NCBI GenBank assembly: GCA_017859955.1
Contig: JAFNAB010000001.1
Coordinates: 1 to 64,000 of the forward strand
Direction of reading: 5' to 3'
Source of the DNA: Holophagaceae bacterium
Lineage (GTDB): Bacteria > Acidobacteriota > Holophagae > Holophagales > Holophagaceae
DNA length: 64,000 nt
Shown here: positions 18,002 through 60,012 of the stretch, in pieces
How the letters are laid out: each line of letters opens with the position of its first letter
How positions within the stretch are numbered: the first letter of the stretch is position 1
Notes under the pieces: generated by a model
Told to the model about the DNA's origin: nothing
Databases searched by the model: none
What the model saw: the letters and a program-made list of their open reading frames with translations, nothing else
Program-made: the position numbers and the translations under genes

Positions 18002-18246
18002 TATATTGCTAGCCTAAAATTACTTAAAATCATCAACAAAACCGATGGGTATCATTGCCAGAAACCATTAGTCTCTTGCCGGAGACAGGTTTAGGGTCTA
18101 ATCACACCATTGCCCATTGGGCCAGTCCCCAAAGCCGATCAGATAGCACCCCTTAGCCGGGGGTAGGCTTTGCTTGGCCACTCGTGAGCGACGCATTCCA
18201 CCCATGGCCCCCGGGCCATCTGCCAACCCACCCCAGGAGGTGAACC

Positions 18247-19035
18247 GTGCCTATCAAGTTGATGGCCGCATCCCGCAAGCGCCCCGGCCTCACCCGGGCC
18301 GAGTACCAGCGCTACATCGAGTTCTATCACGGCACCATTGCCCGCCAGGAGCGTTTCAAGATCGACTCCTACGTCCAGAACCACGTCATCGACGGTGCCT
18401 TCGGCCTCCTGAGTGATGCCGACCACCAGAACAAGGTTGTGGATCGCGATGCCGTGGTGGAGATCAGCTTCAAGAATTTCCGCGAAATGATGGAGACTCT
18501 GGAGCCTGCCGTTCCCTCCGCCGCTTCCCAGGACGGCAAGTTCTTCGCCAACGAAAGCACCAACATCATCGTCATGGCTGAGGAGGAGGAGATTCCTGTC
18601 CCCACCCCCCTGACCACGTTCAACCCGGGCCTGGGCATCGTCAAGGGCGTGGGCGCCATGAAGGTCCTGCAATACATCATGCGGGACGAGGATGTCTATC
18701 CCGAGGACTACAAGAAATATTGGCGCATGGCCCACGAGGAGGCCGTGGAGAAGGCCCCCTACTACAAGGAACAGGCCCGCCGGGTCCAGGCCAACTGGCG
18801 CTGCCGCGCCAACGACAACGACGGCGCCGCCCGCAAGCACTTCAAGATGGTCGATCCCCCGGTCTACGACCTAGTGGTCACCCACTGGTTCGACACCATG
18901 GAGCAGGTGGGCGCATTCCGCCAGTATGTGGAAGCCATGCAGAACAGCGCAGGCCCCAAGTTCGCCAACTGGTCCAAGTCCTTCTATCTCTATACCAAGC
19001 AGATCGTGATCATCCGCGATACGCCCCTGAGCTGA
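18247..19035 (+). CDS. Tandem EthD-like (dimeric alpha/beta barrel) protein
   Basis: 262 residues beginning at GTG with AGGAGGTG 5 bases upstream. Two ferredoxin-like halves are visible, each with the EthD pattern of a short strand, a helix entered by Y..YW/YI and a conserved His. In half one this is RKRPGLTRAEYQRYIEFYH28; in half two PEDYKKYWRMAHEE. The second half ends with DLVVTHWFDTMEQVGAF. EthD-like and related barrels host varied chemistry on aromatic polyketides and phenolics. Bacterial chalcone isomerase also has this general two-domain fold and a catalytic His at a similar place (recalled, unverified). The next gene, a PhlG-like C-C hydrolase, starts 25 bases downstream, so they form an operon and probably act on one pathway. 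Confidence 0.75.
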   Translation: MPIKLMAASRKRPGLTRAEYQRYIEFYHGTIARQERFKIDSYVQNHVIDGAFGLLSDADHQNKVVDRDAVVEISFKNFREMMETLEPAVPSAASQDGKFFANESTNIIVMAEEEEIPVPTPLTTFNPGLGIVKGVGAMKVLQYIMRDEDVYPEDYKKYWRMAHEEAVEKAPYYKEQARRVQANWRCRANDNDGAARKHFKMVDPPVYDLVVTHWFDTMEQVGAFRQYVEAMQNSAGPKFANWSKSFYLYTKQIVIIRDTPLS

Positions 19036-19060: not shown

Positions 19061-19948
19061 ATGTCCACGCCCGAAACCAAGCAGTACACCTACAAAGAGT
19101 GGTACCCCACCACCAAGGCCAAGGCCCAGCAGCCGGACCTCAGCCCCGAAGAGAAGGCCCGCCCCTTCGCCAAGTATTACTACGAAGAGATCCCCCAGCC
19201 CGACCCTGCCCACTACGCCATGATGGAAAAGCCCTGCGACCCCGCCAAGGCCCTCTACCCTGAGCAGATGAACGATCTGCTCAACCCAGGCTACCTCGAC
19301 GTGGAGATCGGCTGGTGCAATCTGGCCAACGGCGCCGGTTTCATTGCCAACAAGATCGTCTACCCCGGCGTCACCGCCGAGATGATCGACTGGTGGTTTG
19401 CCTGGCACCCCCTGGAGGATCTCCGCTACCGCATCTGGTATCCCCCCCAGCACGGCGGCATCCACCTGAGCCCCGAGGGCCGCAAGCGGATCCTGGATGA
19501 GAGCATTCCCATGTCCGAGCGCAACTGGGGCGTGGTGCACCACGTCACCGAGAACTGCGACTGCGGCATGGAGAACATCACCATCAGCTTCTTCTCCCCC
19601 AAGGACTACGGCTTCGACATGACCCGCTTCAAGCAGCCCTTCGTCTCCACCTTCGCCGGTGGCCAGGGCTGGGCCGTCACGGTCGACAAGAACGATGAGT
19701 CCATCACGGCCCCCGCCATGATGTGCCACATCTTCCGCGACACTCCCGAGGGCCTGGAGCACCGCACCCGCTTCTGGCTGGGCTACCGCCTTTCCAACGG
19801 CGTCCCCGAGTGCACCCTGCCCCCCGGCGTGGCGGTACCCCAGGTCGCCGTCCAGGGCCTGGCCCGGCACAACGTGAAGGAATTCACCCGATTCAAGCAC
19901 TTCCTGCCCCGCATCTATGCTGAATTCGGCGGGAAGATGATCGTCTGA
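19061..19948 (+). CDS. PhlG / phloretin hydrolase family C-C hydrolase
   Basis: 295 residues resembling the 2,4-diacetylphloroglucinol hydrolase PhlG and phloretin hydrolase family, zinc enzymes that cleave the C-C bond between a phloroglucinol ring and an acyl chain. Metal ligands known in the family are two His and two Glu, the first pair 31 residues apart and the second as HxxxE. Here H116 (WWFAWH) and E147 are 31 apart, and H270-N-V-K-E274 gives HxxxE. The conserved WFAWHPLEDLRY..W.PP..H block is present. No signal peptide, so it is cytoplasmic. It sits second in an operon with an EthD-like protein and is followed by a strong terminator shared with the convergent LysR gene. The acyl group is unknown. 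Confidence 0.85.
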   Translation: MSTPETKQYTYKEWYPTTKAKAQQPDLSPEEKARPFAKYYYEEIPQPDPAHYAMMEKPCDPAKALYPEQMNDLLNPGYLDVEIGWCNLANGAGFIANKIVYPGVTAEMIDWWFAWHPLEDLRYRIWYPPQHGGIHLSPEGRKRILDESIPMSERNWGVVHHVTENCDCGMENITISFFSPKDYGFDMTRFKQPFVSTFAGGQGWAVTVDKNDESITAPAMMCHIFRDTPEGLEHRTRFWLGYRLSNGVPECTLPPGVAVPQVAVQGLARHNVKEFTRFKHFLPRIYAEFGGKMIV

Positions 19949-19967: not shown

Positions 19968-20004
19968 AGAAGCCGCGGCCTTCCCCTGGGAGGCCGCGGC
20001 TTCT
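19968..20004. terminator. Bidirectional terminator hairpin
   Basis: AGAAGCCGCGGCCT pairs with AGGCCGCGGCTTCT across a short loop, a 14-bp perfect stem. It separates the convergent PhlG-like and LysR genes. The T-tract is weak on both strands. Confidence 0.8.
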
Positions 20005-20021: not shown

Positions 20022-20933
20022 TCAGGAAAGCGCCACCACCGGGGAGGCTTCAGGGTGGATGCCCAGGCTCTTCAGGAACAGCGGGATCGCCGCATTCCCG
20101 GTTTCAGGATTCCAGGCGATGCACCCCTTTAGGGTCCGCTTCCAGTCCTCAATCTCTTTGAAGACCAGGTTCGGATGGGCGTTCTGATCGAACATGTACC
20201 GGGGCAGCAGCGAAAGCCCGACACCCGACTCCACCAGCATGAACAGCGTGCCGAAATCCTGAGGACGCTGCACCACGTGGGCCTGCCCCCCCAACCTCGC
20301 CCAGAACTCCTGGTGCGTGGTCAGCGAGGGGGGCGCGAGACTGGCTGCGGGTTCCACGAAGGCCTCCTCAGCGAGGTCCTCGAGCCTGAGGGATCGCCCC
20401 ACCTTGGGGTGATCGTTCCCCATAATGACGCCGATGGGCGCCTCAAAAAGCTGGACCGCCTTGAGGCCCGGAAGGTCGGCCACGGCCCGGGCGTGGGTGA
20501 AGACCACGTCCAGGGTGCCTTCCACGAGCTGCGCCCGCAAATCTTTGAGGGAGTAGTGGGCAATCAGAACCTTGATCCCCGGGCATTCACGCTTGAAGCG
20601 CTTCATGAAGAGGGGCAGAATCCGCTCTTCGTAGCCCCCCAGAAAGCCGATACGGAGCTCACCGGAAGCCCCCAGCCCAATGCTCCGGGTGCTTTGGAGC
20701 AGCCCGCCATAGCTTGCGAGGATCGGCTTGATCTGCCGGAGGAAGTGTTCTCCAGCCGCTGTCAGCCTGACGGAGCGGGAGTTACGGTCGAATAGCCTGG
20801 TGCCGATCTCGCTCTCCAGGGCCGCCACTTGGTAGCCCACCGCGGAATGGGTCAGCCCGAGCTCCTTGGCCGCCTTGGTGAAACTCAGGTGTTCCGCGAC
20901 CCCAAAGAAGCATCTGAGCTGTCGCGTATCCAC
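20022..20933 (-). CDS. LysR-family transcriptional regulator
   Basis: 303 residues. The N-terminal winged HTH (about 1-62) has the typical LysR pattern: LRCFFGVAEHLSFTKAAKELGLTHSAVGYQVAALESEIGTRLFDR. The effector-binding domain follows (LRIGFLGGYEERILP onward). The GTG at 20933 is preferred, with GAGGGGAT upstream, over a longer TTG-started form. The gene lies between the EthD/PhlG operon and the divergent ene-reductase gene, so it is the likely local regulator, responding to a pathway substrate. The 250-base AT-rich divergent region should hold its operators; I did not find an unambiguous T-N11-A box. Confidence 0.93.
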   Translation of the reverse strand: MDTRQLRCFFGVAEHLSFTKAAKELGLTHSAVGYQVAALESEIGTRLFDRNSRSVRLTAAGEHFLRQIKPILASYGGLLQSTRSIGLGASGELRIGFLGGYEERILPLFMKRFKRECPGIKVLIAHYSLKDLRAQLVEGTLDVVFTHARAVADLPGLKAVQLFEAPIGVIMGNDHPKVGRSLRLEDLAEEAFVEPAASLAPPSLTTHQEFWARLGGQAHVVQRPQDFGTLFMLVESGVGLSLLPRYMFDQNAHPNLVFKEIEDWKRTLKGCIAWNPETGNAAIPLFLKSLGIHPEASPVVALS

Positions 20934-21184
20934 CCTTTGATCCCCTCGAACCAAGACCGGCCCTCAAGGATAGCCGCCGATCTGTAAAATTTTTCGTCCG
21001 CTCTGGCAAAAGTTTTAATTATTTTTCAAATTCGCGGAACCCATTACCCTGAATGGAGTTCATACGAAATTGGCGGCATTGGACAGAGCAGTTGCCATCA
21101 GAAAGCCATCAGTGGCGTCTGGGCCAGATCGCTCAATTTCAATAAATAAACCTCGATATGCCCCAATCCAGAAGGAGTATGCCT

Positions 21185-23209
21185 GTGACATCCTATCCCC
21201 ACCTCAACAGTCCCATCAAGGTCGGCAAGTTCACCTACCGGAACCGCATCGAGGGCGCCCCGACCATCTTCTCCAGCCTGGCCCTGGTTCCCTTCCTGAC
21301 CGACAAGATCCTGCGGATGCAGGAGGATCGGGCCAAGGGAGGTTGCGCCGCCGTCGTGAACGGCGAGATCTCCGTCAACTTCGACGACTCCCTGCGCCCC
21401 ATCGTGGCGGGCGAGGGCAAGATGATCAGCCTCAAGGTGGACTACAAGGACTTCAGCTCCCCGGCCTTCGCCATCTTCCAGAAGAACGCCCAGGTCATCA
21501 AGAAACACGGCGCCGTTGCGGTGGCCGAACTCTCCCACTTCGGCATCGAGAAGCCCCTCCTGGAGGACGGCATCCAGCCCCTGGGACCCGTGGCCTACAC
21601 CAAGCCCGATGGCACCCCCGTCCGCGCCTTCGATGCCGAGAGCATGGCCAAGGTCGCCCAGGACTTTGCCGAGTCCGCCGCCTTCATGCAGGCCGCGGGT
21701 TTCGACGGCGTCTTCGTCCACTGCGGCCACGGCTGGATGATCGGCCAGTTCCTCTCCCCCCGGAACAACACCCGCACAGACGAGTTCGGCGGCAGCATCG
21801 AGAACCGGGGCCGCTTCCCCCTGCAGATCCTCAAGGCCATCCGGGAGCGCTGCGGCCAGGACTTCCTCATCGAGATCCGCCTCAGCGGCCAGGAGAACCT
21901 CCCCGGGGGCATCACCCTGGAAGACACCGTGGGCTTCTGCAGGCTGCTTGAAGGGACCGGACTGGTGGATCTGATCCACATCTCCGCCGGCCACTACTAT
22001 AGCCCCGCCCGCTCCAACGAGTTCTCCACCATCTTCCGCCCCCACGCCTTGAACGCGGACTACGCCGCCGCCGTGAAGCAGGCCGTCAGCATCCCCGTGG
22101 CTGTCGTGGGTGGCATCACCACCGCCGAGGACGCCGAGCGGGTCATCGCCGAGGGCAAGGCCGATATCGTCTCCATGGGCCGCCAGATGATCGCCGACCC
22201 CGCCTTCGCCAACAAGGCCGCCGCCGGGAAGGGTGATGAGATCCGCGCCTGCCTGCGCTGCTGCATCTGCTACCCCGGCCCCTCCGGCGAGCACAGGACC
22301 GACCCTCCGGGCCGCCATTTCCCGGGCCTGGGCTCCTGCACCATCAACCCCTATAACGTGAACTCATTCTCCCACCACAAGGTGCTGCCCGAAGACATGC
22401 CCAAGCCCACGGGCTCCCGCAGGGTCCTCATCGTGGGCGGCGGCCCCGGCGGCATGCAGGCGGCCATCGACGCCTGCGACCGCGGCCACAAGGTGACCCT
22501 GATCGACAACTCCGAGCGCCTGGGCGGCACCCTGCGCCTGACGGACTGCGACTTCTACAAGCAGGACCTCTTCCAGTTCAAGGAACTCCTGGTGCGGGAA
22601 GTCAGCAAGCGCCCCATCACCGTCACCCTCAATACCCAGGTCACGCCTGCCACGATCAAGGAATTCGCCCCCGAAGCCCTGATCCTCGCCATCGGCGCCG
22701 ATCCCGCCATGCCCCCCATCCCCGGCATCGAGAAGGCCGTGAAAGCCTTCGACACCTACTTCCTGCCAGACACCCAGATCGGGAAGAAGGTGGTGATGGT
22801 GGGTGGCGGCCTGGTGGGCTGCGAAGTGGGCCTGGAGCTGGTCAAGAAGGGCCACGAAGTGGTGGTCATCGAGATGCTGGAGCGCCTGGTGAATGAAGCC
22901 ATCGGCATTCACCGCACCGCCCTCCTGGACAAGATGGATGAGGTGGGCATCCGTTCCATGGTCAAGACCCAGTGCAAGGCCATCCAGGACGATGGCGTCC
23001 TCGTCGTGGACGCCGAGGGGAAGGAGAGCTTCCTCTCCGCCGACACCGTTGTCATTGGTCTGGGCTACAGGGCCCGCACCGAGGCCGCCAAGGCCCTGGG
23101 CGAAGCCGCCGGCGGGATCCCGGTCTTCGAGATCGGCGACTGCCTCAAGGCCGCCAAGGTCGGGGAAGCCATTCAGCAGGGCTACACGGCGGCCATGTCG
23201 ATCGTTTAA
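21185..23209 (+). CDS. OYE-type NADH:flavin oxidoreductase / ene-reductase (FMN, Fe-S, FAD)
   Basis: 674 residues, same architecture as 2,4-dienoyl-CoA reductase, enoate reductases and BaiCD-type enzymes. The N-terminal FMN TIM barrel includes H179-C-G-H182 and RTDEFGGSIENRGRF; Fe-S cysteines follow; then an FAD/NAD(P)H region with GGGPGG (418-423) and a second GGGLVG Rossmann motif. Such enzymes reduce activated C=C bonds, including cinnamate-type, chalcone-type and enoate substrates. The cysteine set is C356, C359, C360, C362 and C385, so the last ligand lies about 22 residues on, versus about 11 in FadH. The GTG start is chosen because AAGGAG is 7 bases upstream. It is divergent from the LysR gene and near the PhlG-like hydrolase. 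Confidence 0.9.
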   Translation: MTSYPHLNSPIKVGKFTYRNRIEGAPTIFSSLALVPFLTDKILRMQEDRAKGGCAAVVNGEISVNFDDSLRPIVAGEGKMISLKVDYKDFSSPAFAIFQKNAQVIKKHGAVAVAELSHFGIEKPLLEDGIQPLGPVAYTKPDGTPVRAFDAESMAKVAQDFAESAAFMQAAGFDGVFVHCGHGWMIGQFLSPRNNTRTDEFGGSIENRGRFPLQILKAIRERCGQDFLIEIRLSGQENLPGGITLEDTVGFCRLLEGTGLVDLIHISAGHYYSPARSNEFSTIFRPHALNADYAAAVKQAVSIPVAVVGGITTAEDAERVIAEGKADIVSMGRQMIADPAFANKAAAGKGDEIRACLRCCICYPGPSGEHRTDPPGRHFPGLGSCTINPYNVNSFSHHKVLPEDMPKPTGSRRVLIVGGGPGGMQAAIDACDRGHKVTLIDNSERLGGTLRLTDCDFYKQDLFQFKELLVREVSKRPITVTLNTQVTPATIKEFAPEALILAIGADPAMPPIPGIEKAVKAFDTYFLPDTQIGKKVVMVGGGLVGCEVGLELVKKGHEVVVIEMLERLVNEAIGIHRTALLDKMDEVGIRSMVKTQCKAIQDDGVLVVDAEGKESFLSADTVVIGLGYRARTEAAKALGEAAGGIPVFEIGDCLKAAKVGEAIQQGYTAAMSIV

Positions 23210-51233: not shown

Positions 51234-52349
51234 CTACTTACCGGTCGCCGCCGAGATCATGGCTTTGACGTTCTCCACCTTGGCGTTCGGGGGGCAGGAG
51301 CAGCCACAGGAGAGGATGAAGCCGGGCCCGTTGGCCTTGATCATGTCGGTGCAGTATTTGTGGACCTGGTCAGGATTGCCCAGGACCAGCATGCCCGCCG
51401 GAACATCCCCTTTAATGGCGACGTGGCCCCCGAGCTTTTCGCGGATCTTGGCCATGTCCGTCACACCGTCGGACTCGAAGATGACGGAGCCTGGCTTGAA
51501 GGCCCGGAAGTAGTCAAGATCCCGCTCCCAGTTGCCATCCGCATGGATATCGCAGACGTACCCCTCCTCATTGACCATGTCCACCGTCTCCTTGATGAAC
51601 CGGAAGACAAAGCGTTCCCATAGCTTGGGGGAGTAGAACTCGCTGGCACCGCGCGCCGGGGACACGAAGACCACCGGCGACTTGCCCTTGCTCGCGCGGA
51701 TCATGCCGCGGAGCTGTTCAAGGTTCTCCTTCTGGATCACATTCAGGACCTCTTCCACCTTGTCGGGCATGGTGAAGATGTCCCGCATGAACTTGCCCAT
51801 GGAGCGGCCACCGCTCAGGTATTCGTTGACGGTGATGGTCACCAGTTCGGAATAGACATACATCCCGTTGGCTTCAAATTTCTGGACCGCGGTGCCCGCA
51901 TTGGCCAGATCCGCGCCCAGAGTCGGGAGATCGACGCCAAGGCGACCCATCACATAGCCCGGCATGAAGTTGTTCCAGCCCCCGGCCAGGATGGTGTCGT
52001 AGTCGGCCTGGGTCATCACTTCACGCTCGTCCAGCTGCCAGAGGGCATCGTCGGGAAGCTCACGTCCCGGGAGCTTGACCTTGGTCATGAAGATCAGCGG
52101 GAAGAGGGGGCCGGCCGGGAACGCTGAGTTCACGCCATCCAGGTCGCCGCCCAGGGCCACCGCAGACTCACACATGATGTCGCTGGCCAGATCTATGCCC
52201 TTGCAGAGATCCGCAATCTTTCGACCTCGCTCCTTGGCAAAGAATGAGTCAGCCATGAGCACCACGGGGGTGCGGTCGGTCTTCTCGAGCCTGATGGTCT
52301 TCTTGAGACGGTCCAGCCGTTCGTTCAGGAGTTCTTCCGGGGTCTTCAT
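51234..52349 (-). CDS. URO-D superfamily protein (candidate corrinoid methyltransferase)
   Basis: 371 residues of the uroporphyrinogen decarboxylase/MtaA-CmuA superfamily TIM barrel. It lacks features of true HemE. A His-x-Asp (CDIHADGNW) replaces the HxC zinc motif of MtaA-type methyltransferases, and a Cys cluster near the C-terminus (GFILSCGCSCPPNAKVEN) supplies possible ligands. Such proteins in anaerobes often transfer methyl groups between organic substrates and corrinoid proteins. No corrinoid protein gene is adjacent. GGAGGAG precedes the ATG. A sigma-54-type promoter lies about 80 bases upstream and a sigma-54 activator gene is divergent, so expression is probably induced by a specific substrate. 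Confidence 0.8.
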   Translation of the reverse strand: MKTPEELLNERLDRLKKTIRLEKTDRTPVVLMADSFFAKERGRKIADLCKGIDLASDIMCESAVALGGDLDGVNSAFPAGPLFPLIFMTKVKLPGRELPDDALWQLDEREVMTQADYDTILAGGWNNFMPGYVMGRLGVDLPTLGADLANAGTAVQKFEANGMYVYSELVTITVNEYLSGGRSMGKFMRDIFTMPDKVEEVLNVIQKENLEQLRGMIRASKGKSPVVFVSPARGASEFYSPKLWERFVFRFIKETVDMVNEEGYVCDIHADGNWERDLDYFRAFKPGSVIFESDGVTDMAKIREKLGGHVAIKGDVPAGMLVLGNPDQVHKYCTDMIKANGPGFILSCGCSCPPNAKVENVKAMISAATGK

Positions 52350-58641: not shown

Positions 58642-60012
58642 TCAGAAGATCCAGTTCCAGAGCCAGAGGAAGGCCATATCCTCAATGGACTCCCATGGCT
58701 TTTGGATGAGGACCTCGTCACCCGGAATGCCGCCAAACTCGGCCTTCTTCATGGACCAGGGCGTGAGCATACCCTTGTCGCCCATATCCGGGGCCCCCCC
58801 TAGGATGGGGAGAAGGGGTTGGGGCTTGGGTTTGAGGTTCCGGTCGTACCAACCGTATTTCATCGCCGCATCGACCATGGCCTTGTAGTTCTCAGGCTTG
58901 GTGTTGGAGGGGATGTAGCAACTCCCGCTCAGGATGTACCCTCCGCCGGGCATGCACTCCTCGCAGAGCCGCTTCACCCGGGCATCCATCTCATCGGGGG
59001 TGCCGAGGATGAACTGGGTGCTGGCGATGCCGCCCGCGAGGCACATGTGGTGGCCGATCTCCTTCTTGGCCTTGAAGATGTTGTCGGCCGGATCATCGAT
59101 ATCCAGGAGGATGCTGCCCTTGGGGAGTTCCAGGAAGTGGTGCCAGTGGGCTGACCAGTCGCCCTCCAGGTAGCAGCGCACCTTGTGGCCCGCCGCGATG
59201 ATCCCCTCCAGGGTCTTCTTGAAGGAAGGCCAGTAGAAGGTGTCGAACTGTTTGGGGGACATGAAGGTGGGCTTGTGGGTCGGGACGAAGATCGGGTAGC
59301 GGCGGAAGGGGTCCGCCGTGGCCAGGGCAAAGCGGATCATGATGGGGGTCATGACTTCGCAGGCTTCCAGTAGCTTGTCCGGATTCCGTCGGGTGTCCTT
59401 CAGGATGCCCACCATGCCCCGCATGACATCTCCCAGAGCATCGAGGGGAGCCAGGAAGGCGCCCGTGGCGGGCTGGGGCATACCACACTGGGTCTGCAAC
59501 TGAATACTGCGGTTCCGCATGACCTCCCCCAGCTTGGCCTGGGCCAAGCCAGCTTTGAGGAAGGCGAAGTGGGAGCGTGCGGAATCCTGCCCCATTTCCC
59601 CGAAGATCCTCGGAAGGAACTTCTCCATCATGTAGCGGGCGGGTGAGGCGATGAAATCGTCGTACTCGTCTGCCCGCATGTATTCGTCCTCCACGAACTG
59701 GAGGGCACCGTCCAGGGGCAGGTTGCGTCCCGGGAACTTGTAGGTCTTGAGGTCCACCACGTCGTAGAGCGGGACCCAGAAGCGGTTGTTGCGGAGCACA
59801 TCCACTTCAGGGAAGTCCTGACAGAACTTGATCTCGCTCGACAGCCACTTGGCAGGGTCGTAGACGACCTCCTGCTTGGTAATCCCACCATAGGTCTCCG
59901 CGAAGGTGTTGGATCCCACCGCAATGGGCACGCGGTCTACGGGTTCAAGAGCGATGGCTCCCTGGTAGCGGCCAAGCCGCTCTTCGAAGAGTTGTTCATT
60001 TGTGCGTTCCAT
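58642..60012 (-). CDS. URO-D superfamily protein (candidate aromatic O-demethylation methyltransferase)
   Basis: 456 residues, a second URO-D/MtaA-CmuA superfamily TIM barrel, longer than the first by a C-terminal extension rich in Pro and Trp (about 400-456). The MtaA HxC zinc motif is replaced by E-G-D (CYLEGDWS), with a Cys in the C-terminal GYILSGSCYIPSNTKPEN. It lies 28 bases downstream of an aromatic-acid transporter gene on the same strand, and an IclR regulator is divergent. A role in demethylating or otherwise processing an imported aromatic acid is inference from this context. No corrinoid-protein gene is adjacent. Confidence 0.78.
   Translation of the reverse strand: MERTNEQLFEERLGRYQGAIALEPVDRVPIAVGSNTFAETYGGITKQEVVYDPAKWLSSEIKFCQDFPEVDVLRNNRFWVPLYDVVDLKTYKFPGRNLPLDGALQFVEDEYMRADEYDDFIASPARYMMEKFLPRIFGEMGQDSARSHFAFLKAGLAQAKLGEVMRNRSIQLQTQCGMPQPATGAFLAPLDALGDVMRGMVGILKDTRRNPDKLLEACEVMTPIMIRFALATADPFRRYPIFVPTHKPTFMSPKQFDTFYWPSFKKTLEGIIAAGHKVRCYLEGDWSAHWHHFLELPKGSILLDIDDPADNIFKAKKEIGHHMCLAGGIASTQFILGTPDEMDARVKRLCEECMPGGGYILSGSCYIPSNTKPENYKAMVDAAMKYGWYDRNLKPKPQPLLPILGGAPDMGDKGMLTPWSMKKAEFGGIPGDEVLIQKPWESIEDMAFLWLWNWIF

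Follow-up and report, generated by a model that had tools for sequence, protein, structure and literature searches.

A tandem EthD-domain protein with a phloretin hydrolase-like partner as a putative enzyme of flavonoid catabolism in a Holophagaceae bacterium

Introduction

Anaerobic breakdown of flavonoids is relevant to peat and soil carbon as well as to gut polyphenol metabolism, and the enzymes known for it (CHI, FLR, Fcr, and Phy) leave some of its steps without an assigned enzyme. CHI is a chalcone/flavanone isomerase that possesses a mobile lid and forms a D3 hexamer. The enzymes of family PF18089 are hydrolases that detach an acyl group from a phloroglucinol ring by breaking the C-C bond that joins them. 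They include phloretin hydrolase, described in PMC11868195, and PhlG, a zinc-dependent DAPG hydrolase (PMC8003664). For flavonols, cleavage of alphitonin to phloroglucinol and arylpyruvate has been proposed, with no enzyme named in the part of the source considered here (PMC11170127). In anoxic wetland soil fed with condensed tannin, a Holophaga MAG was seen to express CHI, FCR, and PHY (PMC8084988), and CHI-like sequences from Holophaga-type bacteria have already been reported (PMC8361940). The gene content of the bacterium described here suggests that it belongs to this group.

Here, we describe a gene pair in a 64,000-nucleotide stretch of a Holophagaceae bacterium (assembly GCA_017859955.1, contig JAFNAB010000001.1, positions 1 to 64,000), referred to as the window. 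The product of the first gene is at present annotated merely as an "EthD domain protein", and the original prediction suggested that this label hides a CHI-like enzyme. We consider it, with a probability of about 0.6, to be a putative acid-base isomerase or ring-opening enzyme that feeds a phloretin hydrolase-like partner in flavonoid catabolism, beside CHI. The pathway itself is not new; what a search limited to open-licence PMC papers did not find is the tandem EthD component, the constancy of its pairing, and the fact that it coexists with CHI.

The tandem EthD gene and its surroundings

The ORF of the tandem EthD gene (Table 1) is genuine. The Pfam EthD profile (PF07110) matched this protein twice (48.4 bits, above the curated cut-off) and was matched by all 14 members of its family; NCBIfam contained no model naming the protein. 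The residues His28, His46, and His163 are conserved in the family alignments, with H28 invariant in 14/14 members. As in the EthD family (PF07110; TIGR02118 "EthD family reductase"), both halves match PF07110 and carry the common histidine of helix 1; unlike that family, the protein has both EthD domains in a single chain and has a constant PF18089 partner gene.

Table 1. Features of the locus, with positions in the window.
Feature	Position	Strand	Description and evidence
Shine-Dalgarno-like AGGAGG	18231..18236	+	5' of the tandem EthD gene; seen in CCCAGGAGGTGAACCGTG; position +/- few bases
Tandem EthD gene	18247..19035	+	262 aa, GTG start; ORF and translation, two Pfam EthD matches, structure model, family alignments
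Hydrolase gene	19061..19948	+	C-C hydrolase of the phloretin hydrolase/PhlG family (PF18089), predicted Zn-dependent, 295 aa; Pfam E = 8e-72
GC-rich inverted repeat	19969..20003	.	GAAGCCGCGGCCT-9 nt-AGGCCGCGGCTTC, 3' of the hydrolase gene; read directly
LysR-family regulator	20022..20954	-	start 20933 or 20954; Pfam HTH_1/LysR_substrate; divergent from the reductase gene
Three-domain reductase	21158..23209	+	old-yellow-enzyme type (FMN/FAD/NAD(P), Cys-rich linker); start 21158 or 21179; PDB, NCBIfam

The hairpin that follows the hydrolase gene probably marks the end of a two-gene unit. The consensus scan, which looks for a T run and does not accept loops longer than 8 nt, missed it. Beyond the LysR gene, the reductase matched NCR (PDB 6qkg, E = 2e-69) and also dienoyl-CoA reductase (PDB 1ps9), and its best NCBIfam profile was BaiCD, under the cut-off. 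We regard it as a candidate flavanone/flavanonol-cleaving reductase, which can be likened to E. ramulus Fcr by the old-yellow-enzyme three-domain type only. The order of the pair, LysR, and reductase genes is kept in the sister genome G316 (locus L019).

A constant pairing with a PF18089 hydrolase

The hydrolase gene begins 25 bp downstream of the tandem EthD gene, and its product is a clear member of the phloretin hydrolase/PhlG family. In the PDB, it matched phloretin hydrolase (5xe5, E = 8e-37, 130 bits) and PhlG (3hwp, E = 1e-28, 103 bits); its score with the NCBIfam PhlG model was 102 bits, far under the 600-bit cut-off. The His/Glu/His positions of the family are conserved: H131, E164, and H270, which, following the PhlG literature, we take to be metal ligands, are invariant in 14 sequences.

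This arrangement recurs in all orthologous loci that we identified. A PF18089 gene lies directly downstream of the tandem EthD gene in 11/11 of them, with gaps of 13-41 bp: two in the genome studied here, three in a sister species, and the remainder in six other genomes (Bryobacterales, two Rhodobacteraceae, another alphaproteobacterium, a gammaproteobacterium, and Castellaniella). The pairing thus spans Acidobacteriota and alpha-, beta-, and gamma-proteobacteria. The two proteins co-diverge, their pairwise distances being correlated (r = 0.94, 45 pairs), and are under purifying selection (dN/dS of about 0.1-0.15 among close pairs). The paired hydrolases form one clade (support 100/99), apart from the other PF18089 genes of the same genome, which have no EthD neighbour. 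One of the two pair copies in this genome is split, its hydrolase gene starting where contig C119 ends, with the continuation most likely on C56. The complete genome G316 contains two near-identical copies (at least 99%; L019 and L020), which are a recent duplication, and a third at 60%. The EthD partner distinguishes these loci from the two-gene neighbourhoods of phloretin hydrolase and PhlG, for neither of which our search of open-licence PMC papers found such a partner.

Because the constant neighbour is an enzyme of a flavonoid-cleaving type, the tandem EthD protein probably represents an overlooked step of plant-polyphenol breakdown. Since PF18089 also includes DAPG hydrolases such as PhlG, the substrate could instead be another acylphloroglucinol, so that the module would degrade a non-flavonoid compound (e.g., DAPG-like antibiotics) and the tandem EthD protein would act on this compound or its product. 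We consider this quite unlikely: the partner is nearer to phloretin hydrolase than to PhlG by the scores given above, and the genomes that carry the pair also have CHI-family genes.

Predicted structure and fold comparison

The better of two structure models of the tandem EthD protein, built from 14 relatives, is of only medium confidence (pLDDT 78, pTM 0.81). Its first half is composed of a strand (residues 3-10), a helix (17-34), two strands (41-52 and 67-75), a helix (78-85), and a strand (106-116), and the second half repeats this order (strand 138-144, helix 152-169, strands 179-183 and 209-215, helix 218-232, and strand 246-257). These two predicted beta-alpha-beta-beta-alpha-beta units bear out the two ferredoxin-like halves of the original prediction.

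A Foldseek search of the PDB with the first, poorer model ranked E. ramulus CHI first (E = 5.3e-7). This ranking was weakened with the better model, for which coproheme decarboxylases were top by E-value (1.7e-7); CHI chains followed at E = 8e-7 and reached the highest TM-score among the matches listed (up to 0.55). The bacterial CHI structure 4C9S is among the fold matches. The original prediction named a best match to haem-degrading or unrelated EthD barrels with no shared active site as evidence against itself; with coproheme decarboxylases leading by E-value, this outcome is half realised. Judged from the models, CHI and the coproheme decarboxylases, which bind haem, share the top of the ranking, and because the latter lead by E-value with the better model, the fold alone does not discriminate: it places the protein in the CHI/chlorite dismutase/EthD group without a choice inside this group.

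Chlorite dismutases and coproheme decarboxylases bind haem with a proximal histidine, and Foldseek assigns them (PF06778) the same overall two-domain fold as the tandem EthD protein. That the protein is itself haem-binding and of this kind, as the leading E-value would have it, is nevertheless very improbable. No PF06778 match was found in the members of the tandem EthD family, no PF06778 gene in the genome itself, and none in its relatives; TM-scores to these structures are lower than to CHI, and the gene context is unrelated, with no haem gene nearby and an aromatic C-C hydrolase as the constant neighbour. An anthrone oxidase-like protein and the monooxygenase PenE were weaker fold matches and raise the alternative of a cofactor-free oxygenase acting on phenolics, like other EthD-fold monooxygenases. 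We regard this alternative as very unlikely. The host genus is probably Holophaga-like, a kind described as anaerobic flavonoid users (PMC8084988), in which an O2-dependent step is unlikely, although some proteobacterial carriers may respire oxygen.

Sequence comparison with chalcone isomerase

The tandem EthD protein resembles E. ramulus CHI (PF18232; PDB 4C9S/4D06) in its two ferredoxin-like domains, length, and helix-1 histidine, and CHI is among its best fold matches and belongs to the same kind of pathway. The CHI motif LQRWIYKVH, from which the original prediction argued, is correct, as checked residue by residue against PDB 4D06; our CHI query is identical to this entry over 283 residues. 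H28 in YQRYIEFYH is placed like the catalytic His33 of CHI, and the two motifs have 4/9 letters in common. This register, however, is not specific to CHI. A histidine at the end of helix 1 is also present in a single-domain EthD protein (FQHYWREVH, locus L035), in a Novosphingobium EthD protein (YSRYAEQVH), and in distant CHI-like proteins, where it lies in the second domain, these other proteins and domains showing 1-3/9 motif identities. It occurs in both halves of the tandem EthD protein itself (H28 and H163), and E. ramulus CHI lacks the EthD histidine that the second domain retains. Because the residue is superfamily-wide and general in EthD domains, H28 is no CHI signature. The lengths are indeed similar (262 versus 282 aa), as would be expected of any two-domain EthD or chlorite dismutase-like protein.

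Direct alignment of the two proteins is hardly better than that of shuffled sequences, which scored as well in 58/500 local and 14/500 global comparisons and, for the N-termini, in 232/1000. The CHI profile PF18232 (Chalcone_N), with which E. ramulus CHI scores 167 bits, was matched by 0/14 members of the tandem EthD family even at E <= 10. Iterative HMM searches from either family did not reach the other, and no CHI was returned when the PDB was searched by sequence, whether the query was the single protein, only the N-terminal half, or a profile of 11 members. The hhalign probability against CHI alone was 0.3%. Profile-profile comparison of the second domains with the CHI family gave 12-24%, in register, versus at most 0.5% for unrelated controls, which is compatible with a remote common origin but suggestive only. 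In a hand-anchored alignment, the CHI pocket residues Tyr48, Gln69, Thr71, and Gln101, which are conserved contacts of the A-ring and the carbonyl (PMC8361940), have no evident counterparts, Tyr48 falling at H46. On these sequence comparisons, the tandem EthD protein is not a CHI.

Distribution and coexistence with chalcone isomerase

The tandem EthD family is rare. It was found in 2/396 sampled genomes of the phylum, both of one genus, and had a single close member among 399 Pseudomonadota, in the genome used as the centre of that sample. Viral contigs contained no relative; on plasmids there was one distant relative, which adjoins a Rieske oxygenase in Novosphingobium.

The genome studied here also has a genuine CHI gene outside this locus, at a contig end (C14, E = 7e-54), and encodes a distant CHI-like protein on C122; the sister genome has an intact CHI of 278 aa. 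CHI-family proteins are present in 6/8 carriers of the tandem EthD gene, which were chosen solely for this gene and are not independent (two belong to one genus), versus 0/58 relatives from other genera, a baseline that is not a base rate for Pseudomonadota. PF18089 and PF18232 each occur in 2/60 relatives, both of the same genus, and in two Rhodobacteraceae, a CHI gene lies about 4 kb or less from the EthD-hydrolase pair. Because the two families coexist in the same genomes, CHI and the tandem EthD protein appear to serve one pathway, with neither replacing the other.

These data bear on whether the protein is a functional CHI acting through His28, perhaps with a stereopreference opposite to that of the CHI of the genome or with another B-ring range. 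The top TM-scores, rank 1 with the first model, the equally placed histidine, and neighbouring phloretin hydrolase-like and old-yellow-enzyme-type reductase genes that fit the CHI-Fcr-Phy pathway (PMC11868195, PMC11170127) are in line with such a role. Nevertheless, we consider it unlikely in view of the missing PF18232 match, of the pocket residues without evident counterparts, of the CHI that the genome already has, and of the separate CHI-family protein in most carriers; moreover, those CHI branch B proteins that had altered catalytic domains were inactive (PMC8361940). The proposal that the generic EthD label hides a CHI is therefore not supported, but the label does conceal a connection with flavonoid breakdown, evident from the PF18089 neighbour and the presence of CHI in the fold search.

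Proposed role in flavonoid catabolism

We therefore favour the reading of the tandem EthD protein as an isomerase or ring-opening enzyme, for which the genomic data are the strong part of the evidence. Since PF18089 enzymes cleave an acyl-phloroglucinol C-C bond, they depend on an enzyme acting before them to deliver a ketone in open-chain form, and CHI-type histidine chemistry (proton abstraction and ring opening) is a natural analogue, which makes an acid-base isomerase acting through H28 or H163 the likeliest solution. We infer that H28 (or H163) serves as the catalytic base, that a flavonoid is the substrate, and that the reaction takes place before the C-C bond is cleaved. The protein would carry out a cofactor-free, acid-base isomerisation or ring opening of the flavonoid and pass an open-chain acyl-phloroglucinol to its partner, which would cleave it to phloroglucinol and an aryl acid.

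As a specific guess, the substrate may belong to the auronol/flavanonol branch. If the cyclic hemiketal of an auronol (e.g., alphitonin) were opened, the product would be a 2,4,6-trihydroxyphenyl ketone, which a phloretin hydrolase-like enzyme could split into phloroglucinol and arylpyruvate. The gene is a direct candidate for one of the steps that have no assigned enzyme, in carriers that mostly have CHI already. More tentatively, and with considerable doubt, tandem EthD proteins might constitute a second, hitherto unrecognised family of flavonoid ring-opening isomerases with dedicated phloretin hydrolase-like partners, acting on this branch or a related class that has no assigned enzyme.

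Related loci

A second branch of tandem EthD proteins, about 20% identical, occurs in other arrangements. In Castellaniella, its gene overlaps a PF18089-like gene, and a 107-aa CHI-related fragment, the tandem EthD gene, and the small PF18089-like gene stand in a row (L034:752-2627). In a gammaproteobacterium, the overlap is between a CHI-family gene and the start of the tandem EthD gene (L033:1369-2999). Two loci of the genome studied here (L022:5186-7092 on C90 and L023:8184-10215 on C214) encode second-branch proteins of 295 aa (about 16% identical) adjoining genes for flavodoxin-like FMN reductases, the family type to which the flavone reductase FLR belongs.

Nine PF18089 genes are present in this genome (contigs C93, C135, C23, C56, C166, C11, C53, C197, and C205; loci L038-L045 and L057) and seven in the sister species, versus none in 58 other relatives; this expansion at the level of the genus suggests flavonoid specialists. 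A cluster of ferredoxin, FAD flavoprotein (fumarate reductase-like, about 560 aa), and PF18089 genes recurs and also occurs in Bryobacterales (L056:6835-9730, L075:4210-7095 in G316, L015:2688-5608, and partly L055:7004-9683); it possibly couples a reductive step to C-C hydrolysis. On a plasmid of Novosphingobium sp. EMRT-2, a CHI-like gene lies between those of a PQQ-dependent dehydrogenase and a CoA ligase (L066:6971-11300), which is an unusual context for a relative of CHI. Finally, the window encodes two related proteins of 371 and 456 aa (51234-52349 and 58642-60012 (-)) that, judged by eye, look like corrinoid/uroporphyrinogen-decarboxylase-type methyltransferases. Such genes would be expected where methoxylated aromatics undergo O-demethylation, and similar ones flank other PF18089 genes at L051, L055, and L057.
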